A stretch of 42,984 bases of DNA from contig NZ_JABEQH010000027.1 of the NCBI RefSeq assembly GCF_014174305.1, positions 1 through 42,984 on the forward strand, written 5' to 3'. The notes below the pieces were generated by a model. The model had not been told where the DNA came from, did not search any database, and was given only the letters and a program-made list of their open reading frames with translations. The position numbers were made by a program, and so were the translations under genes. This document shows, piece by piece, positions 30,048-42,464 of this stretch. This DNA comes from Gluconacetobacter johannae (lineage in GTDB: Bacteria; Pseudomonadota; Alphaproteobacteria; Acetobacterales; Acetobacteraceae). Each line of letters begins with the position of its first letter. The stretch's first letter is position 1.

Positions 30048-30075
30048 GGCCATAGTTGTATATACAACTACGGCC
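30048..30075. promoter_or_regulatory. HutC-type operator (best palindrome in the window)
   Basis: The core TAGTTGTATATACAACTA (30053-30070) is a perfect 18-base palindrome. It extends outward to GGCC on both sides with one mismatched pair, giving 28 bases. TTGTATATACAA is the shared centre of the GntR/HutC-like sites found elsewhere in this cluster. Confidence 0.6.
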
Positions 30076-30426: not shown

Positions 30427-32817
30427 ATGCCAACCGTCAAACGCCGTCATGCTTGTGTAGCTCTTTCCACCATGACGTTCCTGGCTTCGACGTCTCTCGC
30501 CGGGGCCACCTCGCCGACGCCGTCACACCATCGACTGCCCGCACACACGTCCAAAGTGCCGAAAGCGGGAGAGTCCCACACTGTCACGCCCGTTCATGCC
30601 GAGGTCATTTCGATCAATGCGGATGGTGCGAACGGAGCATACGGCAAGGTTCGCCATATCGCGGGCGGGGGCTTGATGGCCCTTCAGACAGGCGGCGACA
30701 TGCGTAGCACCGTGACGTCCGAATATATCAACAAGCAGGCATCCACCACCACCGCCTACCAGGCCGTCTCCCTTACCCCCGGTGCCAATCTGGCCCAGAG
30801 CGATCCATACGGCTTTGCCGCGAATTCCATGCTGAGCGTGCGTGGACTGGGCGGAAATGAAATCGGCCAGGTGTGGGAGGGTATGCCGGTCAACGACATC
30901 GAAACCTATAACGGATATCCCACCTATTGGGCTGATGGGGAGGACATCGATTCCGTCAGTCTGACTCAAGGGTCTTCGTCCATTACGGCCCCTGTGGTCA
31001 ACGCGTCCGGCGGCCAGGTCACGACCACGATGCGCGATCCTGCCCACAAGATGGGGGGCCTGATCGACTACAGCTATGGAACGCTGAATCTGCAGCGTTT
31101 CTTCGGCCGCTTCGACACGGGCGATATCGGGCACACCGGCCTGTCGGCCTATGTCTCGTTTTCCAACGGGACCGCGAAAAACTCTCTCGGTCCGGGCCGA
31201 CAGATGCGGCGGCATATCGATTTCGGGTTCAAGAAGGAATTCGAGAACGGAGACCAGATGAAGCTGGTCGGCTCTTATGTCGACATGGATTACATGTATA
31301 ATCCGAACCCGACGCTCGCCGACTGGCAGACTTCCGGCCGAAGCTATGCCTGGGCTGGCACATTCGCGCCGGGAAGCTCGGATTACTGGCTCCAGAACCG
31401 CTGGAAATGGGAGCAGATCATGATGAGCCTGCCTTCCGATTTCACGTTGCCGGGAAAGGTGAAGCTGAATGTCACGCCGTATTTCCTGTATGCGATGCAG
31501 AACTCGCCGGCATCTTCGACGCTGTCCCCCGACGGGAACTATTACGGAACACAGCCCGTCTCGGTGAACATTCCCAATTACGATGCATCGGGCGGCAGCG
31601 TGCGAAGCGATTACGTAGGGCTGCAATCCGTTGGCGGCTTCAACGCATCGCTTTCACGGACTTTCGGAATTCAGAAGGTCACACTGGGATATTGGTACCA
31701 GTATAGTGTCGATGACCTTTCGATGCCATTTTCTTCAGTGAATTCCGGCGGAAGTCCCAGTTCGGCATGGAGCTCCCAGGACATCACCATGGGCAACGGA
31801 AAGCCATATCTTGCCGAGAAGGAGCATACCGTCACCCAGACGAATGCCCTCTACCTGCAAGACGAGATTTCCCTGCTGCATGATCGGCTGAAGATCGTCG
31901 GCGGGATCAAGACATTGATGATAAGCAAGGCGGGGACCAACAGCCTTCCTGGCACGCAGTATCATGTGGGTGCGAACAATTTCCAGCCCCTGCCCCGCGT
32001 ATCGCTGACATACAGGATCGACCCGCATAACCAGATCTTTATCAATGGCAGCACCAACACGTTGATGCCGATCGACGATACCCTGTACAATTTCTATTGG
32101 GGCGGAACGACATCGACACAGGGGAACCCGGCGATCCGCCCTGAATATTCGATCTCGGAAGAAATCGGATACCGGTATCAGGACAGCCTGTTGCATGCCA
32201 GCCTGGCGCTCTTCAATTACAACTTCACGAACCGTCAGGTGTCCAGCCTGACTTACGTCAACAATGTTCCGGTCTACTCAACGATTAATGGTGGCGGCCA
32301 GACCTCCCGCGGGGTGGATTTTGAAGCCGGCCTGATGCCGTTCCATGGCTTCTCGCCGTATATATCGGCGGAGTACCTGCATGCGAGTGTCGACAACAAC
32401 ATTCGTGTCGGAAACGACTATCTGCCGACGGCCGGGAAGACTGCCGTCCGCAGCCCGTCCTTTCAGGGATCGTTCGGTCTTGTCTACGATTACGGAAATT
32501 TCTTCGGAACCTTTTCGTTCAAATATACGGGGTCTCAATACTCCACGTTCATGAACGACGAAAAGATGCCCGCCTACAAGACCTTCAACCTGTCCCTGGG
32601 CTATCGCCTTCCGAATGTCTGGTTTGTCAAACATCCGGAAATCCGCGTGGCATTCATCAACCTGACGGATGAGAAAGTCCTGTCCGGCATTGCATCGCCC
32701 CAGCTCAATGCCCTGTCGACACGCGGAATTCACGGAACCACGATCGATGGCAGCTCGCCCGGATATTATATCGCGCCCCGCTTTACCACCGCGCTGACAG
32801 TGGCCGCCGGTTTCTGA
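30427..32817 (+). CDS. TonB-dependent outer-membrane receptor of the hut cluster
   Basis: This 796-residue protein has a signal peptide (about 1-28). A TonB-box-like EVISINA (59-65) is followed by a plug domain (NSMLSVRGLGGNEIGQVWEG, GMPVNDIETYNGYPTYWADG). A long beta-barrel rich in aromatic-alternating strands ends in a terminal Phe (TTALTVAAGF). Late motifs NPAIRPEYSISEEIGYRYQD and KTFNLSLGYRLPNVWFVK are typical of the family. TonB receptors take up scarce or bulky ligands. Lying 43 bases upstream of hutU behind a HutC-type palindrome, this one probably imports histidine, urocanate or a histidine-containing or metal-histidine compound. Confidence 0.92.
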   Translation: MPTVKRRHACVALSTMTFLASTSLAGATSPTPSHHRLPAHTSKVPKAGESHTVTPVHAEVISINADGANGAYGKVRHIAGGGLMALQTGGDMRSTVTSEYINKQASTTTAYQAVSLTPGANLAQSDPYGFAANSMLSVRGLGGNEIGQVWEGMPVNDIETYNGYPTYWADGEDIDSVSLTQGSSSITAPVVNASGGQVTTTMRDPAHKMGGLIDYSYGTLNLQRFFGRFDTGDIGHTGLSAYVSFSNGTAKNSLGPGRQMRRHIDFGFKKEFENGDQMKLVGSYVDMDYMYNPNPTLADWQTSGRSYAWAGTFAPGSSDYWLQNRWKWEQIMMSLPSDFTLPGKVKLNVTPYFLYAMQNSPASSTLSPDGNYYGTQPVSVNIPNYDASGGSVRSDYVGLQSVGGFNASLSRTFGIQKVTLGYWYQYSVDDLSMPFSSVNSGGSPSSAWSSQDITMGNGKPYLAEKEHTVTQTNALYLQDEISLLHDRLKIVGGIKTLMISKAGTNSLPGTQYHVGANNFQPLPRVSLTYRIDPHNQIFINGSTNTLMPIDDTLYNFYWGGTTSTQGNPAIRPEYSISEEIGYRYQDSLLHASLALFNYNFTNRQVSSLTYVNNVPVYSTINGGGQTSRGVDFEAGLMPFHGFSPYISAEYLHASVDNNIRVGNDYLPTAGKTAVRSPSFQGSFGLVYDYGNFFGTFSFKYTGSQYSTFMNDEKMPAYKTFNLSLGYRLPNVWFVKHPEIRVAFINLTDEKVLSGIASPQLNALSTRGIHGTTIDGSSPGYYIAPRFTTALTVAAGF

Positions 32818-32860: not shown

Positions 32861-34555
32861 ATGGTCAATGCATCTTCCCCGACTTCCCGCCTTGCCAACG
32901 ATCGCGTTATCCGATCCGCCCATGGAGCCGAAATCACCGCCAGATCCTGGCAGACGGAAGCTGCCATGCGGATGCTGATGAACAATCTCGATCCTGAAGT
33001 CGCGGAGAAGCCGTCGGAACTCGTCGTCTATGGTGGCATTGGACGGGCGGCGCGGAACTGGGCCTGTTACGACCAGATCGTGGAGTGCCTGCGCGTGCTC
33101 GGCGATGAGGAAACGCTCGTCGTACAGTCGGGCAAGCCGGTGGGCGTCTTTCGGACGCATGCCAATGCCCCGCGTGTTCTGATCGCCAATTCCAATCTGG
33201 TTCCGCACTGGGCCAACTGGGACAAGTTCAACGAACTCGACCGGGCGGGCCTTATGATGTACGGCCAGATGACGGCGGGTTCCTGGATCTATATCGGCAG
33301 TCAAGGCATCGTCCAGGGCACGTACGAGACGTTTGTGGAAATGGGGCGTCAGTATTACGGCGGCGACCTGAAGGGCCGCTGGATCCTGACTGGCGGTCTT
33401 GGCGGCATGAGCGGCGCGCAGCCACTGGCGGCCGTGATGGCGGGCGCGTCCATGCTGGCGGTGGAGTGCGAACCCTCCCGCATTCAGAAGCGCCTCGAGA
33501 CGGGCTATCTGGACCGGCAGGTCCAGGATCTCGATGAAGCCCTGCAGATCATTCACGAGGCTTGCGCCAAGGGCGAGGCCGTATCGGTCGGGCTGCTTGG
33601 AAACGCGGCCGAAGTGTTCCCCGAACTCGTTCGGCGCGGCATCCGCCCCGATGGCGTGACGGACCAGACGTCGGCGCATGATCCCCTGAACGGCTACCTG
33701 CCTGCCGGGTGGTCGCTGGACAAGGCTGCGGCGCTGCGTATTACGGATCCGGCGTCTGTGGAAAAGGCCGCGAAAGCCTCCATGAAGGCGCAGGTGGCCG
33801 CCATGGTGGCGTTCCATCGCATGGGGGTGCCGACCTTCGATTATGGAAACAATATCCGGCAGATGGCGCTGGAAGAAGGACTGGAGGACGCATTCGCCTT
33901 TCCGGGATTCGTCCCTGCCTATATCCGGCCCCTGTTCTGCCGGGGGATCGGCCCGTTCCGATGGGCCGCCCTTTCGGGCGATCCGGAGGACATCTACAAG
34001 ACCGATGCCAAGGTCAAGGAACTGCTGCCGGACGACAGGCACCTGCATAACTGGCTGGACATGGCGCGCGAGAAAATCCAGTTCCAGGGCCTTCCCTCCC
34101 GCATCTGCTGGGTCGGCCTGGGGGACCGCCATCGGCTGGGCATGGCCTTCAACGAGATGGTCGCGAAGGGCGAACTGAAGGCGCCGATCGTGATCGGACG
34201 GGACCATCTGGACAGCGGCTCGGTGGCCAGCCCCAATCGCGAAACCGAGGCGATGCGCGATGGGTCGGACGCGGTTTCCGACTGGCCGCTGCTGAATGCG
34301 CTGCTCAATACGGCGTCGGGCGCGACATGGGTCTCTCTGCATCATGGTGGCGGCGTCGGAATGGGGTTTTCGCAGCATTCGGGAATGGTGATCGTCGCGG
34401 ATGGAACCGAGGATGCCGCAGCCCGGCTGGAGCGCGTTCTATGGAACGATCCTGCCACAGGCGTGATGCGCCATGCCGACGCGGGCTACGACATCGCAAT
34501 CGCCTGTGCACACGAAAAAGGCCTGAACCTGCCCATGGTCACCAACAGCAAATAA
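32861..34555 (+). CDS. hutU: HutU, urocanate hydratase
   Basis: HutU converts urocanate to 4-imidazolone-5-propionate, the second step of histidine breakdown. The NAD+-dependent enzyme has 564 residues. Visible signatures are [20 protein letters not shown], the NAD-binding [40 protein letters not shown] and [39 protein letters not shown] follows, with the Cys (about residue 415) corresponding to the active-site Cys410 of the Pseudomonas enzyme, then [20 protein letters not shown]. All conserved blocks are present, so it should be active. Cotranscribed with the receptor gene. Confidence 0.98.
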
Positions 34556-34633: not shown

Positions 34634-35881
34634 ATGACAGGCATGCGGGCCCTCGGTCATTTTCCCGGACGGACGTTACTTCTTCTTTCGCTCGGGCTGA
34701 GCATCTGCTCGGGATGCGCGTATCTCGGATCGTCCGTCATGCCGTTCCAGATCGATGCCCTGATGTCGGGGCTGCACCAGTCGGCCAGCCGCGCCGGCAT
34801 GTTCGGCTTCTTCGAGATCATGTCGTTCGCGATTTTCATGATGCTGCTGTCGCGGCTGAAACCGCGCTTCTCCGTCGTCGCGACCGCCTTTCTCGGCGCG
34901 GGCCTGGCCATCATCTCGTCCTTGCTGACCGCCAGCGGTCCCACATCCTCCGTCTGGACATGGGGCTGTGCGGTGATCTTCGGACTGGCCGAGGCCCTGC
35001 TCGGGCGATCCTATGTCTGTGCTGCGTCCGCAAGCGACAATCCCGAGCGGATGTACGCGATTTCGAATGGTGGCGGGCTGCTGGTGCTGGTGGCCGTGAT
35101 CGATGCGATCCCTTACGCCACGCGGACCTTCGGGGATCTGGGGGTGTTCGTCGGCATCGCGGCAATCGTCGCGTGCATCGCACCCTTCATGATGACGCTG
35201 CGTCATGCGCCCGCAGCACCAATCGTTCAGAATACGGAAAAGCTGCGCCTGACACGAGGGGCCGTCGCCCTGTTGTTCATCTGGGTCGGGTCTTCCCTCG
35301 GTTCCAGCATGGCATGGTCGTTTGCCGAGCGCGTGGGCCGGTCCATTCAGCTGTCGGCGGACTATATCGTCCTTCTCTCGACCGTGGGCATCGTCTCCAG
35401 CGTCGTGGTGAGTCTCGTGGCCGGCGCCCTGACGCGCCGTCTGCCGCGCGAGATCATTCTGCCACTGACACTCGTGGGAACCGGGATAGGAGGGCTCCTT
35501 GCCTGCTCGGCCTGGAATTCCTGGAGCTATACGATCGGCGTGATCGTCTACTGGAACTGTTCGATGCTTTCCTACGCATGGCTTCTGGGCAGTGCGGCAG
35601 CCCTGGACCATACGGGGCGGCTCGGCACGTTCTGCGGCGGCATGGACCGCATGGGATACGCACTGGGGGCCCCGCTTGGAGGGCTGATCGTCGACCACAC
35701 GTCCTTCATGATGCTGGGGATCGCGGGATGCGCGGCCTGTATTGTCAGCATCCCCTTCGGGTTACCGGTTCTGCTGAAGGAAATCCGTCACCCCGGCATC
35801 GTGGAGCAACCTGCCCCCCCCATCGCAACGCCCGGCGCTTCCCTCGCCTGTCGGGGGGGAGAGGCTCAGGGCGGAGACTGA
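34634..35881 (+). CDS. MFS transporter of the hut cluster
   Basis: This 415-residue inner-membrane protein has about twelve hydrophobic segments in two halves, split by a cytoplasmic loop around LRHAPAAPIVQNTEKLRLTR. It ends in a Pro/Ala/Gly tail. It belongs to the major facilitator superfamily but not to the amino-acid permease families (HutT, HutM) usually found in hut operons. Position after hutU suggests transport of urocanate, histidine or a product. Whether it imports or exports cannot be told from sequence. Its last 16 bases overlap the 3' end of the convergent hutH-like gene. Confidence 0.85.
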   Translation: MTGMRALGHFPGRTLLLLSLGLSICSGCAYLGSSVMPFQIDALMSGLHQSASRAGMFGFFEIMSFAIFMMLLSRLKPRFSVVATAFLGAGLAIISSLLTASGPTSSVWTWGCAVIFGLAEALLGRSYVCAASASDNPERMYAISNGGGLLVLVAVIDAIPYATRTFGDLGVFVGIAAIVACIAPFMMTLRHAPAAPIVQNTEKLRLTRGAVALLFIWVGSSLGSSMAWSFAERVGRSIQLSADYIVLLSTVGIVSSVVVSLVAGALTRRLPREIILPLTLVGTGIGGLLACSAWNSWSYTIGVIVYWNCSMLSYAWLLGSAAALDHTGRLGTFCGGMDRMGYALGAPLGGLIVDHTSFMMLGIAGCAACIVSIPFGLPVLLKEIRHPGIVEQPAPPIATPGASLACRGGEAQGGD

Positions 35882-37356
35882 ACCGCCATCCATGCCTCCA
35901 GCCCCGCGATATCGGCCGCCAGGGGACGATCCTCTTCATAGAAGGGAACAATCGCCCTGACCGCGCGGTACAGGGCTGCCGTGCGGGGCGAGATCTCATC
36001 GGCAAGATCGGCGAGGTCGATGGCCTGGCAGAGAGCCAGAAGCTCGATAGCGAGAATGGACCGGGTATTGGCGAGCACATCGTACGCCTTGAGGGCGGCC
36101 GGTGTCGCGTGAACGAGAATATCCTCCTGAAGGCCGGAGGTAATGCCCCCATCCAGACTGGCGGGAAGCGCCAGACGCCGGTTCGCTCCCACCAGGGATG
36201 CCGCGCTATATTGCGCGATCATGAAACCGCTTCCTGTTCCGGAATCGCTCGACAGGAAAGCCGGGAACGGGCTGGTCAGAGGATTGACCATACGATCGAG
36301 GCGCCGTTCGGACACCGCCCCCAGGGATGCGAGCGCGATGGCGGCCTCATCCATGACACGCGCGATGCTGGCCCCGACCGCATGCGCCTCCGAGAACGCG
36401 CCAATGCCGGTGTCGTCTTCGATGATGGCGGGGTTGTCCGAAAGGCTGCGCAACTCCTGCCCGACAGTCTGATGGATGCTTTCGAGCGCATCATGAACGG
36501 ACCCGTGAATCTGCGGAATGGCACGAAGGCTGAGGGCGTCCTGTACGCGTTGCCCCTTGGCCTTCGCAATCCTCACCGAACCCGCGAGGTCGTGGTTGAG
36601 CGCCCGCGCGACCTGCCTGTGTCCCGACATGATGCGTAATCCGGCGGATCGGGGGTCAAACGCGTTCTGCTGCCCGCCGAGAACGTCAAACGTGGCTGCC
36701 GCGATGCGGTCTGCCCACTGGAGACAGGACCGGCCCTCCTGGGTGACAAGACTGGCGACCCCCGTGGCACAGGACAGCCCGTTGACCAGGCAAAGCCCTT
36801 CCTTCGCTTCCATTACCAACGGTTCAAAGCCCAGGCGTTCGAGAACCGCAGCGGCGGGCTGAAGCGCGTTGCCGACGTCAAGCTCTCCATGGCCGATCAG
36901 CGTCAGGGAAATATGCGCCATATGGGTCAGATATCCCACCGAGCCGTCTCGGGGCACGACCGGCAGGCAGTCATGGTTCAGAAGCGCGACCAGGCGTTCG
37001 ACGATGCCTTCCCGCAACCCGGAATAACCCAGACAATATTCATTGACAGCACACGCGATGATGGCGCGGGTGGCTTCACGACCGAGAGGGCGCCCTATGC
37101 CCGTGGCATGACTGAAAAGGATCTTGCGCGAAAGGATGGATTGTTTTTCAGGCGTGATCCGCGTGTCCGACAATCCGCCGACGCCCGTATTGAGGCCATA
37201 GGCAGAAGCCGCGCCGTCCACCAGGACGCGCAGGCGCCCGTGTGCATCCCGCAGTCTTTGCCGCGCCGCGTCAGAAAGACGGATCTTCTTCCTTTTCCAG
37301 GCGATGTCGTACACATCTCGCGGGGCAAGAGGCTGATCGAGCAGGATTTCGGACAT
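35866..37356 (-). CDS. hutH: HutH-like aromatic amino acid lyase homologue without the MIO tripeptide
   Basis: This 496-residue protein is homologous along its whole length to histidine ammonia-lyase, which makes urocanate from histidine. Conserved parts are SAYGLNTGVGG (Tyr53), LFSHATGIG (His83), GLCLVNGLS (Asn192), RVQDALSLRAIPQIHG (Gln272, Arg278) and SGLQEDI. The loop that should read GSVGASGDLAPLAH reads GSVGYLTHMAH (residues 138-148). The Ala-Ser-Gly that cyclises into the MIO cofactor is missing by a clean three-residue deletion. The residue equivalent to catalytic Tyr280 is Leu275. The gene is otherwise intact and has its own promoter and HutC-type site, so it is not a decayed pseudogene. 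Its reaction is uncertain. Confidence 0.85.
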   Translation of the reverse strand: MSEILLDQPLAPRDVYDIAWKRKKIRLSDAARQRLRDAHGRLRVLVDGAASAYGLNTGVGGLSDTRITPEKQSILSRKILFSHATGIGRPLGREATRAIIACAVNEYCLGYSGLREGIVERLVALLNHDCLPVVPRDGSVGYLTHMAHISLTLIGHGELDVGNALQPAAAVLERLGFEPLVMEAKEGLCLVNGLSCATGVASLVTQEGRSCLQWADRIAAATFDVLGGQQNAFDPRSAGLRIMSGHRQVARALNHDLAGSVRIAKAKGQRVQDALSLRAIPQIHGSVHDALESIHQTVGQELRSLSDNPAIIEDDTGIGAFSEAHAVGASIARVMDEAAIALASLGAVSERRLDRMVNPLTSPFPAFLSSDSGTGSGFMIAQYSAASLVGANRRLALPASLDGGITSGLQEDILVHATPAALKAYDVLANTRSILAIELLALCQAIDLADLADEISPRTAALYRAVRAIVPFYEEDRPLAADIAGLEAWMAVQSPP

Positions 37357-37372
37357 GAGACGCCTGGATTTA

Positions 37373-37413
37373 TTGTATAGACAACCATAATCGGCATGCA
37401 TACCGAACGTCAA
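37373..37413 (-). promoter_or_regulatory. Promoter and HutC-type operator of the hutH-like gene
   Basis: On the minus strand TTGACG (37408-37413) and TATGGT (37384-37389) are 18 bases apart. TTGTCTATACAA (37373-37384), a near-palindrome of the HutC type, touches the -10 and ends 17 bases before the ATG. A repressor here would block transcription start. Confidence 0.55.
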
Positions 37414-37457: not shown

Positions 37458-38183
37458 TCAGGGGCGATAGCGCCCCCCGAAGCTGTAGCGGTTTCCGGAA
37501 TAGGTAAAGATACCCTTCATGACAACGCGTCCATCGACCCATGTCCGACGGATCAGCTGCAAACAGGCTGCGGGTTTATCAAGTTGCAGAAGTGTGCAGA
37601 TGTCCAGTGGCGGCGTCACGGCGAATACGACGTGTTCGATTTCTTCCGGCCCCGCGATTCCGTAAAGGTGACGATGCGGGTTTGTCTGGGCAAAATCCTG
37701 CTCCAGATAATCCGGTGCAAAGTGCGGAGAGACATAGCGCTCTTCCATCTGAATCGGAAGATCGTCTTCGTAATGGACGATCAGCGAGCGAAACAGGCGT
37801 GCTCCGGGCCGCTGTTCGAAGGCCGTCGCCAGATCGCTGTCGGCGCGGACAGTCTCGACGGCGATCACTTCGGCGCGATGCTGATGCCCGCTTGCAACGA
37901 TGTCGTCGACAATATCGCGGATTTCCAGCAGTTCGACGCGATTCGCCGGCTGCGCCACGAATGTCCCGACCCCCTGGGCGCGACGGACGATGCCGTCCGC
38001 CGTCAGTTCACGCATGGCGCGGTGAATGGTCATCCGCGATACGCCCAACTGTTCGACAAGCTCGTGTTCGGATGGCAGGCGATGACCGACCTCCCACTCT
38101 CCGCGATCGATTCGCTCGATGATGAAAGCCTTCACCTGCTCGTAACGCGCGACCATCTTCGCCTTGTCCAGGGTCTGCGACAC
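37458..38183 (-). CDS. hutC: HutC, GntR-family repressor of histidine utilisation
   Basis: HutC represses hut genes and is released by urocanate. The 241-residue protein has an N-terminal GntR winged helix (about 12-78: WEVGHRLPSEHELVEQLGVS, RMTIHRAMRELTADGIVRRA, GVGTFVA) and a C-terminal UTRA effector domain (about 95-235: RAEVIAVETVRADSDLATAF, MEERYVSPHFAPDYLEQDF, LLQLDKPAACLQLIRRTWV). The start is GTG at 38183 with AGGGGAG just upstream; the next in-frame ATG (38156) has no such site. It is divergent from hutD across a 123-base gap that contains a HutC-type site, suggesting autoregulation. Confidence 0.95.
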   Translation of the reverse strand: MSQTLDKAKMVARYEQVKAFIIERIDRGEWEVGHRLPSEHELVEQLGVSRMTIHRAMRELTADGIVRRAQGVGTFVAQPANRVELLEIRDIVDDIVASGHQHRAEVIAVETVRADSDLATAFEQRPGARLFRSLIVHYEDDLPIQMEERYVSPHFAPDYLEQDFAQTNPHRHLYGIAGPEEIEHVVFAVTPPLDICTLLQLDKPAACLQLIRRTWVDGRVVMKGIFTYSGNRYSFGGRYRP

Positions 38184-38261: not shown

Positions 38262-38273
38262 TTGTACTTACAT
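38262..38273. promoter_or_regulatory. HutC-type operator between hutC and hutD
   Basis: TTGTACTTACAT matches TTGTATATACAA in both half-sites except the centre and one outer base. It lies in the divergent hutC/hutD intergenic region, 34 bases before hutD, where it could control both genes. Confidence 0.45.
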
Positions 38274-38306
38274 ACGAGGCACACCCATAAACAGGCACAT
38301 GGATAT

Positions 38307-38909
38307 ATGAAGCCAGATCCGGAAAATGACAATCTTTTCCCATCGGCCCCATACGCGGAAGCAATTTCCAGCCAGCCCTCCCGGCTCTGGAAAAATGGCG
38401 GCGGCCTGACGAAGGTCATTGCGGATCATGCGGACTGGCGGCTGAGCGTTGCCGATATCAGCCGGGATGGCGCCTTTTCCCACTTTCCAGGAATCGTACG
38501 GCACATCGCCCTGCTGGAAGGGGCGGGAGCCCGCCTCTCGCTGTCGGATGGGACGAAGCGCGATATTGCCGGAACTGGCGATGCCCACACGTTTTCGGGC
38601 GATCTTTCGGCGGATGTGGCGCTGGTCTCCGGGCCGGTCAGGGTCGTGAACCTGATGCACCCGCCATCCCGTCCCTATCGTCTGGAGGCTGTACAGGCCC
38701 CCTGCCAGTGCGTGGGGGAAGCATCGCTTGCCGGCGCGCTGGTCGTCGTGCGCGGACGCTGGGTTCTCGAGACCGCATCGGGCCGCAAGCAGAGCTGTCA
38801 AGCAGGCGAATTCCTCCTTCTTCCCGAAGGGACGGGTGGCATCCTGAGCGTCGAGGATGGGGACGACCCGCTGCTGTACCGGGTGGCCCCCATCCGGGCT
38901 CAGGCCTGA
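38307..38909 (+). CDS. hutD: HutD family protein
   Basis: This 200-residue cupin-like protein of the HutD family (PF05962) contains SQPSRLWKNGGGLTKVIADH, WRLSVADISRDGAFSHFPGI and VRHIALLEGAGARLSLSDG. HutD is found in hut operons of proteobacteria. Work in Pseudomonas suggests it limits excessive hut induction, perhaps by binding formylglutamate or urocanate, but its mechanism is not settled. The ATG at 38307 starts the conserved region. The 3' end overlaps the convergent hutG stop by 10 bases. Confidence 0.92.
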   Translation: MKPDPENDNLFPSAPYAEAISSQPSRLWKNGGGLTKVIADHADWRLSVADISRDGAFSHFPGIVRHIALLEGAGARLSLSDGTKRDIAGTGDAHTFSGDLSADVALVSGPVRVVNLMHPPSRPYRLEAVQAPCQCVGEASLAGALVVVRGRWVLETASGRKQSCQAGEFLLLPEGTGGILSVEDGDDPLLYRVAPIRAQA

Positions 38910-39706
38910 GGGGCCGGTCGCCAGGCCACTGCGGTATCGATCAGTCTTTCAATCGCCCCGGAGAGGGTGGCCGCGGCCTGAAGATCGATGGGCCAGGGAT
39001 CGTTCTCAGACGCGAGATATGTCGATTGTGCGATTTCCAGTTGCACGGCATGGATACCCGTCTCGGGCCGGCCGTAATGACGGGTTGTATGGCCGCCTTT
39101 GAAGCGTCCATCCCGCACATGCGAATAGGACGCGAGCCCCTCCGCGCAGGCCAGGACGTCCCGTGCCAGGGAAGGCGCGCAGGATTGGCCGCTATTGGTT
39201 CCAAAATTCAGATCCGGCAACCGGCCTTCGAACAGCCGCGGAATTTCGGAGCCGATCGAATGGACATCCCACAGAATGGCCCATCCGCACGCTTCGCGCA
39301 GGCGGTCCAGTTCGTTCCGGATCGCGTCGTGATATGGTTGCCAGTAGCGTTTCGTGCGTTCGGCGACCTCGGCCGGCCCCGGTTCCCGACCTTCGGAATA
39401 GATGGGCTGCCCGTCGAAACCCAGTAGCGGTACCAGGCCGGTACTCGGGCGCCCCGGGTATAATGCCGCGTCGTCATGTCCACGGTTGAGATCAACGACA
39501 TAACGCGAGAAATTCGCACGCAGGACACCGATCCCCCTGGACAGGGCGAACGCGTATAGGTGCTCCATGTACCAGTCGGTATCGGGTAGCCTTTTTCCCC
39601 TTGGGGTCATCCGATCTTCCATTCCCGGCGCCAGTCGGTCGCCCGCATGGGGAATGGTGATGAGGATGGGGAGATGACCGGGCGTCAGGGAGAAGATGTT
39701 CGTCAT
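38900..39706 (-). CDS. hutG: HutG, N-formylglutamate deformylase
   Basis: HutG is the last enzyme of the five-step pathway, hydrolysing N-formylglutamate to glutamate and formate. The 268-residue protein belongs to the N-formylglutamate amidohydrolase family. Its motifs are LITIPHAGDRLAP, LPDTDWYMEHLYAFALSRGI, NFSRYVVDLNRGH, LWDVHSIGSEIPRLFEGRLP and GIHAVQLEIAQSTYL. These carry the expected metal-binding His/Asp/Glu residues. It follows hutF after 22 bases on the same strand, so the two consecutive enzymes are cotranscribed. Confidence 0.95.
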   Translation of the reverse strand: MTNIFSLTPGHLPILITIPHAGDRLAPGMEDRMTPRGKRLPDTDWYMEHLYAFALSRGIGVLRANFSRYVVDLNRGHDDAALYPGRPSTGLVPLLGFDGQPIYSEGREPGPAEVAERTKRYWQPYHDAIRNELDRLREACGWAILWDVHSIGSEIPRLFEGRLPDLNFGTNSGQSCAPSLARDVLACAEGLASYSHVRDGRFKGGHTTRHYGRPETGIHAVQLEIAQSTYLASENDPWPIDLQAAATLSGAIERLIDTAVAWRPAPQA

Positions 39707-39728: not shown

Positions 39729-41099
39729 TCAGGCGGACATCAGGTCGCGAAGTGACGCACGAAAGGCGTTTGTAATGCGCTTTTCGTCAGGGTGATGTCC
39801 ATCAATGATGCGCCAGCGCCCGTCCGACATGACATGCCGGACAGGCGGTCTGGAGGTTGCGAAAATGGCTGAGTCGAGAAGATCGTCGCCCTCGAGGTCC
39901 GGGAGGGAAAGGGCGTCCTCGTCGATCACGCATAAATCCGCGCGGGCGCCGGGTACGAGCCCGGCGACCGGCAGCCCACAGGCTTGCGCGCCGCCCTTGA
40001 GGCTTTGCTGGAAAAGCCAGCCTCCGATCGAGCCTTTCCGGCCGGCCGGAAGAGCGACGCATCGTTTCTGCCAGTTGAGGCGCAGGCCATATTCCAGCAG
40101 ACGCAGTTCTTCCCAGGGGCTGATGAGGACGTTGCTGTCACTTCCGATCCCGAAGTGGCCACCCTGATCGACATAGGACTCGAATGGAAAGATGCCGTCT
40201 CCCAGATTGGCTTCCGTAATGGGGCAGAGCCCGGCCACGGCCCGCGAACTCGCGATGGACGTCACCTCGGCTTCTGAAAGGTGGGTGGCGTGCACCAGGC
40301 ACCAGCGCTCGTCCACAGCCAGATGGCTCATCAGGTAATCGACGGGGCGCTGCCCCGTCACGGCAAGGCACGCATCCACTTCGCGCTGCTGTTCCGCAAC
40401 ATGGATATGGATCGGCGCGCCGGGGCCGGCGACATTCAGAAAGTCGCCGATGGACTGGATATCGACGGCTCGCAGGGAGTGCAGCCCTATGCCGACATGC
40501 ACCAGGTTCGACCCGCGCCAGTGGGACCGGATGTCGGACACGATGCGCGCAATCCTGTCGGGGTGGCCCGCAAAACGTTTCTGGGCATCGGCCAGAGGAC
40601 TGCCATCCAACCCGCCACGCGCATAGAGCGTGGGGAGAAGCGTGATCCCGAGACCCGCGTCGGTAGCGGCTGCGACCAGGCGGCTGGACATTTCGGCAGG
40701 GGATGCGTAGGCGCGGCCATCGACCTCATTGTGGAGGTAGTGGAACTCGGCTACCTGTGAATACCCGGCCTTGAGCATCTGCATATACAGGAAGGCCGCG
40801 ACGTTCTGCATCTGCTCCGGCGAGATCCGGTGGGCCAGTTGATACATGAGCGTGCGCCAGGTCCAGAATGTATCGTCCGGATTCTGTCTCTTCTCGGCCA
40901 GTCCTCCCATCGCACGCTGAAAGGCGTGGGAGTGAAGGCTGATCTGCGGAGGCACCACCACGTCGAACCGCTCTGCCCCGGCTTGAGGGGCGCTGTCCGG
41001 AAAGATTGCTGAGAAGGTTCCATCCTTCCCGACGGCGATCGTGACGTTCCGACGCCACCCGTCGGGCAGCAGGGCCTGTTTTGCAAACAATTCGGTCAT
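39729..41099 (-). CDS. hutF: HutF, formimidoylglutamate deiminase
   Basis: HutF deiminates N-formimino-L-glutamate to N-formyl-L-glutamate and ammonia, the fourth step in the HutF/HutG branch. The 456-residue protein is an amidohydrolase-superfamily enzyme. Metal and catalytic motifs are ISLHSHAFQRAMGG (about residues 65-78), VAEFHYLHNEVDG, IHIHVAEQQREVDACL, CLVHATHLSEAE and HFGIGSDSNVLISPWEELRL. The ATG at 41099 begins the conserved part; an open extension to 41132 adds eleven non-conserved residues. Divergent from hutI and cotranscribed with hutG. Confidence 0.96.
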   Translation of the reverse strand: MTELFAKQALLPDGWRRNVTIAVGKDGTFSAIFPDSAPQAGAERFDVVVPPQISLHSHAFQRAMGGLAEKRQNPDDTFWTWRTLMYQLAHRISPEQMQNVAAFLYMQMLKAGYSQVAEFHYLHNEVDGRAYASPAEMSSRLVAAATDAGLGITLLPTLYARGGLDGSPLADAQKRFAGHPDRIARIVSDIRSHWRGSNLVHVGIGLHSLRAVDIQSIGDFLNVAGPGAPIHIHVAEQQREVDACLAVTGQRPVDYLMSHLAVDERWCLVHATHLSEAEVTSIASSRAVAGLCPITEANLGDGIFPFESYVDQGGHFGIGSDSNVLISPWEELRLLEYGLRLNWQKRCVALPAGRKGSIGGWLFQQSLKGGAQACGLPVAGLVPGARADLCVIDEDALSLPDLEGDDLLDSAIFATSRPPVRHVMSDGRWRIIDGHHPDEKRITNAFRASLRDLMSA

Positions 41100-41182
41100 C
41101 ACGAAATTCCAGGTTGCACGGCATGAAGGCACATGGCGGCATGCCCTCTGTTCACTCTGTTCCGGGCGGGATCATAATGGGA

Positions 41183-41210
41183 TTGACTGATATGTATATA
41201 CATATATTAA
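41183..41210 (+). promoter_or_regulatory. hutI promoter with a HutC-type palindrome in its spacer
   Basis: TTGACT (41183-41188) and TATTAA (41205-41210) are 16 bases apart. The perfect palindrome ATATGTATATACATAT (41190-41205) fills the whole spacer, so a bound repressor would exclude RNA polymerase. The site may also act on the divergent hutF. Confidence 0.65.
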
Positions 41211-41237: not shown

Positions 41238-42464
41238 ATGTGGGACACCCTGTGGCTCGATGTTCATCTGGCAACGGGCGATGACAGGCTCATCACGTCC
41301 GGGGATGGATATGGATGCATCCATGACGGTGCCGTGGGCATCCACGACGGTGCGATCTGCTGGGTAGGATCGCGCGCGGACCTACCCGGAATACCCGACG
41401 GCCTGGCCCGCAAGGTGGAACATGGTCATGGTGGATGGCTCACTCCGGGCCTGATCGACGCGCATACCCATGTGGTGTTCGCCGGAGATCGCAGCCAGGA
41501 ATTCGCCGAACGCCTGAATGGCGCATCCTATGAGGACATCGCCCGCAAAGGCGGCGGCATCCTCTCCACGGTAAAGGCAACCCGCGCGGCATCCGAGCAG
41601 CAACTCCTTCAGGTTTCACTGAAACGGGTGGAGCGGATGATTCAGGAGGGGACGACCTCGCTGGAGATAAAATCCGGATATGGCCTGACGCTGGCCGATG
41701 AATTCAAGCAGTTGCGGGTTGCCCGCGCGATCGGCAAGACATTGCCCGTACGCGTCCATACGACCTTTCTGGGGGCGCACGCGGTTCCCCCCGAATATTC
41801 GGGACGTGCGGACGATTACGTGACGTTCCTGGCCGATGAGCTTCTGCCCAGGCTTCACGAGGAAAATCTGGTCGATAGCGTCGACGCATTCTGCGAGACT
41901 ATCGCCTTTTCACCCACGCAGACCGAATTCCTGTTCGAAACGGCACGGAAGCTGGGCCTGCCGGTCAGAATCCATTCGGAACAACTCTCGCTCAGTGGTG
42001 GAACCGCCCTGGCCGCGCGCTATGGCGGCCTGTCGGCGGATCATCTGGAATATGCGGATGAAAATGCCGTCATGAGCATGGCGCACCATGGAACCGTGGC
42101 GATGCTCCTGCCGGGGGCGTTCTACTTCATCCGGGAGAAGCAGCTCCCTCCCGTTGATCTGCTTCGCAAACATAATGTCAGCATTGGTCTGGCAACGGAC
42201 TGCAATCCCGGAACGTCCCCTGTTCTGGGCCTGACATCCGTCATGAACATGGGTTGCACGCTGTTCCGGCTGACTCCCGAAGAAAGCTTCCGGGCGGTCA
42301 CCTCTGTCGCGGCCCGCGCTCTCGGAATCGAGCACGAAACCGGGATGCTCCGCGAAGGTCTGCGGGCGGACATGACTTTGTGGGATGTTACCGGGCCACA
42401 TGAGCTGTCTTACTGGGTCGGCGGTATCCGGCCTGTCCGACGCATCTATGGCGGCTTGGGATAA
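41238..42464 (+). CDS. hutI: HutI, imidazolonepropionase
   Basis: HutI opens the ring of 4-imidazolone-5-propionate to give N-formimino-L-glutamate, the third step. The 408-residue amidohydrolase shows [20 protein letters not shown] (first metal-binding His pair, near residues 76-78), [62 protein letters not shown] and [20 protein letters not shown]. All blocks are in order and length is normal. It is transcribed alone from its own operator-containing promoter and is the last intact gene of the hut cluster. Confidence 0.97.

Follow-up and report, generated by a model that had tools for sequence, protein, structure and literature searches.

HutH homologues without the MIO triad form a conserved clade of probable hercynine trimethylamine-lyases in Pseudomonadota

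Results and discussion

The contig NZ_JABEQH010000027.1 of Gluconacetobacter johannae, analysed as one stretch of 42,984 nucleotides and referred to here as the window, encodes a histidine utilisation (hut) cluster in which the only homologue of the histidine ammonia-lyase (HAL) HutH lacks the Ala-Ser-Gly triad of the 4-methylideneimidazole-5-one (MIO) cofactor. This loss is a clade character and not a local accident, and the sequences compared place it in a conserved, regulated and catalytic-looking clade. We consider it probable that the window lyase is an MIO-independent hercynine trimethylamine-lyase producing urocanate. The case from sequence and regulation appears strong, urocanate as the product is well supported by gene context, and the linked transporters point in part to a quaternary amine; the substrate, leaving group and activity, and the role of the window's own transporters of the major facilitator superfamily (MFS) and TonB-dependent types, we infer. 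More broadly, we lean towards an unnamed class of hercynine (histidine betaine) trimethylamine-lyases that goes under HutH across the Pseudomonadota. Such a class would form, with HutC-controlled transporters, a catabolic module that adds a second entry to histidine breakdown (the only HutH-like one in a Pseudogemmobacter and in some acetic acid bacteria), and would have lost MIO separately from ergothionase with the same change of Tyr280 to Leu.

Loss of the MIO triad in the window lyase

The gene and its altered positions are as follows (catalytic positions carry HutH numbering).

35866..37356, minus strand: MIO-less HutH homologue, predicted hercynine (histidine-betaine) lyase, 496 aa plus stop (from PF00221 and the reading of the loop)
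36925..36945, minus strand: loop GSVGYLT, residues 138-144, then H-M-A-H, with the MIO Ala-Ser-Gly deleted (codons 36945-36925)
36532..36534, minus strand: codon of Leu275, at the catalytic Tyr280 position (from alignment)

Translation likely starts at the ATG at 37356 (MSEILLDQPL...), near the starts of homologues. Read directly from the minus strand, the protein has GSVGYLTHMAH at the place of HutH GSVGASGDLAPLAH, and a HMMER alignment against Pseudomonas putida HAL opens a three-residue gap at the MIO loop between matching flanks. Codons and alignment gap thus agree with the initial annotation, which had described the triad as absent at residues 138-144 with the flanks still aligned. Its further claims also held: Tyr280 is replaced by Leu275 (codon 36534-36532), and the residues it listed as retained were recovered as Tyr53, His83, Asn195, Gln277, Arg283 and the QED motif; Glu414 is kept as well. 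A change additional to those it listed places Ala at the Phe329 position, such that both Tyr280 and Phe329, which surround MIO in HutH, are substituted (by Leu and Ala, respectively).

The lyase belongs to the aromatic amino acid lyase superfamily (PF00221, 452.4 bits against a cut-off of 27.3) and scores below the hutH equivalog cut-off (TIGR01225, 434.2 against 539.15 bits), both scores being those of a frame extended by 14 N-terminal residues. An AlphaFold model built from a 10-row alignment (pLDDT, predicted local distance difference test, 82.9) was matched by Foldseek to P. putida HAL with a template modelling (TM) score of 0.85, and to ergothionase with 0.83. The latter enzyme (6s7j) has the same fold, is described as lacking MIO, and converts ergothioneine to thiourocanate and trimethylamine (PMC13405746). 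The modelled loop is of low confidence (pLDDT below 50 for residues 154-156 of the 510-residue frame).

Published mutagenesis offers a guide to what the altered positions do. The Geobacillus HAL equivalents of Tyr53, His83, Asn195 and Glu414 are reported as each essential, while in P. putida HAL the F329A substitution lowers activity 100-2200-fold; Phe329 may stabilise a cationic intermediate, and F329G forms no MIO (PMC11432326). Given that Tyr53 and its companions are kept while MIO, Tyr280 and Phe329 are lost, the lost residues would be those serving MIO chemistry on histidine, and the kept ones those that bind the imidazole and carboxylate and remove a proton. This is the pattern expected of a protein that grips an imidazole amino acid and withdraws its beta-proton without activating ammonia, and it argues for a different chemistry, a possibility that the initial annotation had raised.

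MIO-less lyases form a single, conserved clade

A contig scan with two peptide patterns lying outside the loop returned at least 586 places encoding a relative, of which the best 80 were kept; these lean toward the query's kin, and one of the two patterns includes the Leu280 position and may enrich for Leu280. In all 80 of these best-scoring loci the matched gene was MIO-less, a count left unbiased by patterns that exclude the loop. Together with 12 loci found by the loop pattern, one from the window's genus found via PF00221 (G008), and the window itself, they comprise a set of 94 MIO-less rows, within which the deletion count would be circular as the loop defines the set. Among 398 Pseudomonadota genomes, 13 contained the GSVGYLTHMAH pattern, one of them being the window genome, although genome counts are not independent of one another. 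The best 80 include loci from Gluconobacter, Komagataeibacter, Acetobacter, Rhizobium, Agrobacterium, Burkholderia, Paraburkholderia, Pseudomonas, Leisingera and others, and the closest to the window lyase among the matches listed come from Gluconobacter (81 and 79% identity) and Komagataeibacter (72%).

The initial annotation had named a sequencing error as the explanation to dispose of. Recurrence of the same deletion in 80/80 scan-matched genes excludes it and, with the 13/398 motif-positive genomes, rules out a local artefact or pseudogene; as the frame is also open, and 79-81% identity is found in two Gluconobacter records, we assign next to no probability to an error of sequencing or assembly or to a decaying pseudogene.

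The active-site residues follow one pattern across the 94 rows. Position 280 is Leu and position 412 is Leu in every row, and position 329 is Ala in 82 and Pro in 12, while Tyr53, His83, Asn195, Gln277, Arg283, Met382, Gln413 and Glu414 are invariant. By comparison, the 25 HutH rows that retain Ala-Ser-Gly, to which the window lyase is 29-35% identical, have Tyr, Phe and Asn at positions 280, 329 and 412, respectively, without exception. These patterns bear on the suggestion, also made in the initial annotation, that the protein binds a ligand as a regulator. Cofactor loss alone would fit a pseudoenzyme, that is, a non-catalytic paralogue whose binding of histidine or urocanate would make it a regulator or a decoy subunit; however, the invariance in 94/94 rows of Arg283 and of the residues reported as essential in HAL outside the MIO set (Tyr53, His83, Asn195 and Glu414) implies selection on catalysis. 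In addition, 80/94 loci carry a transporter of a profiled type (counted here and below within 6 kb of the lyase and at 150 bits or more). A non-catalytic role is therefore very improbable.

In a midpoint-rooted tree of 66 rows, chosen by hand from the 128 distinct aligned ones so as to cover their spread, all MIO-less rows fall on a single branch (support 100/100) beside the HutH proteins with the triad; the branch holding both has support 100/99, and ergothionase-like proteins lie outside it. The Acetobacter member L092 also has the loop GSVGYLTHMAH, and the tree places one change to the MIO-less state. The initial annotation had mentioned MIO-less paralogues in pseudomonads and proposed a tree to ask whether they form a clade linked to hut clusters. 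Such a clade was recovered: it is distinct and coherent, its genes are often linked to hut genes, and its members occur in Pseudomonas and far beyond it.

Neither Pfam nor NCBIfam profiles gave a name for this clade. Among eight other members scored with TIGR01225, L044 and six more fail, and one (L055:8446-9975) passes (546.9 against 539.15 bits), from which it follows that annotation pipelines would name this MIO-less protein a histidine ammonia-lyase.

Further loop variants were also identified. Seven loci (L115, L119, L121, L126, L129, L133 and L135) belong to a subclade with the loop GSAGYLTH. Three PF00221 proteins that surfaced as split profile matches are also without the MIO triad, namely those at L167:6532-8016 (loop WGSMGQSDM), L168:6955-8451 (SSGQGGAGEIL) and L166:8559-10163 (WEGQGGAGEIL).

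HutC-like sites point to urocanate as the product

Using TGTNTANACA, which we take to be the consensus of HutC-type sites, three HutC-like sites were found in the window against 0.02 expected.

37374..37383, plus strand: HutC-like operator TGTATAGACA, with 17 bases between the site and the lyase ATG
41193..41202, plus strand: HutC-like operator TGTATATACA, between hutF and hutI
30057..30066, plus strand: HutC-like operator TGTATATACA, in front of the gene for the TonB receptor

The first of these corresponds to the HutC-type operator that the initial annotation had ascribed to the lyase gene. Across the clade, a HutC-like site lies within 5.2 kb upstream in 45/94 loci against 1.75 expected from single-base shuffles, a lower bound as the upstream span began inside the stop-to-stop segment and missed even the window's 37374 site. 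Sites are present in 32/35 Burkholderia-group loci; in the 29 of these that were measurable, 151-330 bp separate the site from the downstream mature N-terminus of the binding protein, whose gene is the first of the transporter-lyase operon. No site was found by this pattern in the eight loci of family f66 (L047-L051, L053-L055). A HutC gene lies within 6 kb of the lyase in 72/94 loci, including 49 of the 60 that have no hut enzyme within that distance. Furthermore, HutU was found in all 35 clade genomes examined, and in 154 of the 398 drawn genomes, including all 13 that are motif-positive.

HutC is described as repressing when urocanate is absent (PMC8871633), and a lyase under its control is for that reason most simply a producer of urocanate. 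Considering the recurrence of sites and repressor genes, we regard urocanate as the well supported, if predicted, product.

Linked transporters suggest an N-methylated histidine

ATP-binding cassette (ABC) systems dominate the neighborhoods of the MIO-less lyases, with an SBP_bac_3-type system in 49/94 loci and an OpuAC-type system in 23/94; a BCCT-like carrier occurs in 2/94 and the window's MFS type in 6/94. The OpuAC protein of L049 has glycine-betaine binding proteins as its best matches. Three Trp residues (Trp106, Trp189 and Trp238) are invariant among 25/25 OpuAC rows from the 23 loci, and two of them, Trp189 and Trp238, align with Trp140 and Trp188 of ProX, in which Trp side chains are reported to hold the trimethylamine group (PMC9732360). 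The BCCT-like carrier gene directly precedes the lyase in two genomes of family f73, and in one of these loci (L045) an ergothionase-like gene lies about 2.4 kb from the lyase. Taken together, the transporters probably serve an N-methylated, and probably quaternary, histidine. The initial annotation had named no substrate; the gene neighborhoods suggest hercynine, which counts among the quaternary amines described as abundant in soil (PMC8550315). EgtD was not found in the window genome, in a search whose control was weak (1/14 control genomes matched, under the cut-off), and hercynine would likely come from an outside source and not be self-made.

The same neighborhoods also harbor signs of other substrates. 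The SBP_bac_3 protein of L044, which represents the group of 49 loci, has as its nearest relatives octopine- and nopaline-binding proteins, whose ligands are N-substituted amino acids; a gene for an N-methyltryptophan-oxidase-like flavoenzyme lies near the lyase in 7/94 loci, these being of rhizobial type; and the window's own candidate importer is MFS-like, a family that does not assign a substrate. An MIO-independent lyase might accordingly form urocanate from another imidazole substrate with another leaving group. Examples would be an N-substituted histidine of the opine type, histidine with one or two N-methyl groups (N-methyl- and N,N-dimethyl-histidine) and derivatives of imidazole-lactate; substrates may differ by subclade. 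We regard this alternative as unlikely: the conserved Trp residues of OpuAC and the BCCT-like carriers speak for a quaternary amine, one active-site pattern holds throughout the clade, and amines that are secondary or tertiary leave poorly when MIO is lacking.

In the seven loci with the GSAGYLTH loop, the flavoenzyme gene follows the lyase.

Genomes with and without a normal HutH

The initial annotation had noted that this HutH is the only one in its cluster, and had allowed for a genuine HutH encoded at another place. The first point extends to the whole genome, in which, at 99.99% completeness, no second PF00221 gene was found; the second did not hold for the window genome, yet 30 of 34 other clade genomes do have a match above 600 bits, the range of HutH proteins with the triad (judged by score and not by loop). 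A 524.5-bit match in G365 was likewise judged by score only. No HutH with the triad was found in Komagataeibacter intermedius (G457), Gluconobacter sp. Dm-62 (G455), Pseudogemmobacter humi (G481) and the window genome; in G455 and G481 the only second lyase is ergothionase-like. Ergothionase-like genes aside, the MIO-less lyase is the only HutH-like lyase in these four genomes.

This distribution is the strongest argument that the protein could serve as their histidase. A genuine histidine ammonia-lyase working by another, MIO-free route would account for a sole HutH-like lyase beside a complete hut set in the window, for the same situation in K. intermedius and, apart from the ergothionase-like genes, in G455 and G481, and for the f66 member that passes the hutH equivalog cut-off. 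However, MIO, Tyr280 and Phe329 have been lost together, and the reported cost of F329A alone is large (PMC11432326). Furthermore, hutH1 of P. fluorescens SBW25 is reported to be dispensable on histidine (PMC8871633), and a duplicate of the same reaction is unlikely in the 30/34 clade genomes that likely also have a normal HutH. We thus consider a histidase quite improbable, and favor the view that the hut enzymes of the four genomes are used for hercynine and urocanate.

Besides the distribution among genomes, several observations weigh against hercynine as the substrate. None of the profiled transporters was found in 14/94 loci, and the commonest linked transporter, SBP_bac_3, is not of the betaine family, its best solved relatives binding opines; it also keeps an Asp (FDD) that presumably corresponds to the amine-binding Asp of HisJ. 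The BCCT-like carriers score too low for the NCBIfam BCCT models; that of L045 reaches 333 bits where one model requires 650, and 308 where another requires 407.55. The contrast with 21 control loci around HutH proteins with the triad (no OpuAC, SBP_bac_3 or BCCT, and one OpuA-type permease) may in part be taxonomic, all controls being alphaproteobacterial, and two of them (L148 and L160) have weak transporter matches of 59-67 bits, under the 150-bit threshold. A family name, moreover, does not fix a ligand, given that EgtU, an ergothioneine transporter of the betaine family, is reported to bind ergothioneine about 10,000-fold more tightly than hercynine (PMC9732360), and the reported uptake of histidine involves HutXWV (PMC8871633). 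Finally, ergothionase differs from the clade at positions 382 and 412, at Phe329 and in loop length, such that the parallel between the two is one of analogy.

Predicted reaction and implications

On the reading that we prefer, a lyase of the HutH fold would act, without making or needing MIO, on a histidine quaternised at its amino nitrogen; hercynine (N,N,N-trimethyl-histidine) is the likeliest candidate. Imidazole and carboxylate would be held as HutH holds histidine, the retained base Tyr53 would take the beta-proton, and trimethylamine, a much better leaving group than ammonia, would be expelled. The urocanate formed would both pass through HutU, HutI, HutF and HutG to glutamate and lift repression by HutC. 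No paper bringing together hercynine, trimethylamine and urocanate in such a reaction was found in the open-licence literature.

If correct, the ‘histidine utilisation’ clusters of genomes without a triad-bearing HutH would be histidine-betaine utilisation clusters, and the second, dispensable hutH of some pseudomonads would be explained. The lyase would provide an enzyme for recycling hercynine and a new bacterial source of trimethylamine, and would demonstrate that, with a good enough leaving group, proteins of the MIO fold can lose their cofactor. Database rules label at least one clade member a histidine ammonia-lyase, and the clade is often misnamed.

The hut cluster of the window

The remaining genes of the cluster are listed below.

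30427..32817, plus strand: TonB-dependent outer-membrane receptor (PF00593, 111.8 bits), with a HutC-like operator upstream
32861..34555, plus strand: HutU urocanate hydratase (TIGR01228, 958.9 bits, cut-off 375)
34634..35881, plus strand: MFS-like transporter, candidate substrate importer (PF07690, 32.4 bits, just below the 33.4 cut-off; synteny)
37458..38183, minus strand: HutC repressor (TIGR02018, 266.1 bits, cut-off 220)
38262..38909, plus strand: HutD (PF05962, 97.2 bits, cut-off 25)
38900..39706, minus strand: HutG N-formylglutamate deformylase (TIGR02017, 324 bits, cut-off 278.75)
39729..41132, minus strand: HutF formimidoylglutamate deiminase (TIGR02022, 548.7 bits, cut-off 413.05)
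41238..42464, plus strand: HutI imidazolonepropionase (TIGR01224, 439.8 bits, cut-off 298.15)

The hydratase scores 697.6 against the thiourocanate hydratase profile NF058530, under its cut-off of 930, and no second hutU-like match was found in the window genome. The TonB receptor gene probably heads a tonB-hutU-MFS run, and the HutC-like operator before it suggests active outer-membrane uptake of a scarce substrate of the hut pathway. Of the seven loci seen from the window's family (f1, which we take to be Acetobacteraceae), six have the MFS-like gene adjoining the lyase gene.

Related arrangements were seen in other acetic acid bacteria. The same TonB receptor family heads tonB-MFS-lyase runs, with a site upstream, in Acetobacter L092 and L095, neither of which has hut enzyme genes within 6 kb. 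In Gluconobacter wancherniae (L062, at about 6-9 kb) the hutI, hutF and hutG frames beside the lyase are partial or split matches and appear to be decaying or misassembled; this species has a second hut cluster with a triad-bearing HutH (L163).

Comparison with known systems

Two side observations concern ergothionase-like lyases. An ergothionase-like gene stands beside genes for thiourocanate hydratase and thiohydantoin desulfurase in an apparent ergothioneine-degradation cluster (L059:4018-8441) in a genome of the window's class. In three genomes of one genus (G002, G004 and G007), lyases with a similar GSIGCADVG loop were identified.

A close parallel in Pseudomonas is P. fluorescens SBW25, in which hutH1 is described within a hutTu-hutXWV-hutH1 insert (PMC8871633). 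The eight f66 loci (a family that we take to be Pseudomonadaceae) share a gene row made up of hutU, a cytosine/purine-type permease, OpuAC, a permease, an ATPase and the MIO-less lyase; a triad-bearing hutH directly follows the MIO-less lyase in five of them (L047-L051), and lies elsewhere in the stretch in the other three. As hutH1 occupies the same operon position as the lyase of L047-L051, we infer that it belongs to the MIO-less clade, and our reading of the clade as hercynine lyases would probably take in Pseudomonas HutH1. The HutXWV and ProX-type ABC transporters share with the clade's systems an OpuAC-family (PF04069) binding protein, with Trp positions conserved in 25/25 rows; HutXWV is described as a histidine transporter, whereas the ligand of the clade's OpuAC proteins is predicted.

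Relative to HutH (EC 4.3.1.3; P. putida 1b8f), the window lyase has the same fold, length, imidazole- and carboxylate-binding residues, base and hut context, and probably the same product. It differs in having no Ala-Ser-Gly and hence no MIO, in the replacement of Tyr280 by Leu, Phe329 by Ala or Pro across the clade, and Asn412 by Leu, and in falling into a separate clade.

Relative to ergothionase (Treponema denticola 6s7j/6s7q), it again has the same fold, no MIO, Leu at 280 and a retained base, and a predicted leaving group in common. Leu280 occurs in 7/8 distinct ergothionase-like rows, ergothionase included; two of the eight are near-identical, L045 is counted once, and L026, which carries the triad, is excluded. 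However, the PDB alignments give ergothionase the loop SSIGEGD (SSIGEGDITTLSH), of a different length, and Phe is kept at 329; the two proteins are 26% identical. The product of ergothionase, thiourocanate, passes to a thiourocanate hydratase, whereas the window hydratase is an ordinary HutU. Tree branch, loop and hydratase together rule out membership of the ergothionase family. By analogy, the window lyase would work like ergothionase while standing outside that family, as a descendant from beside HutH that lacks the defining feature of HutH.

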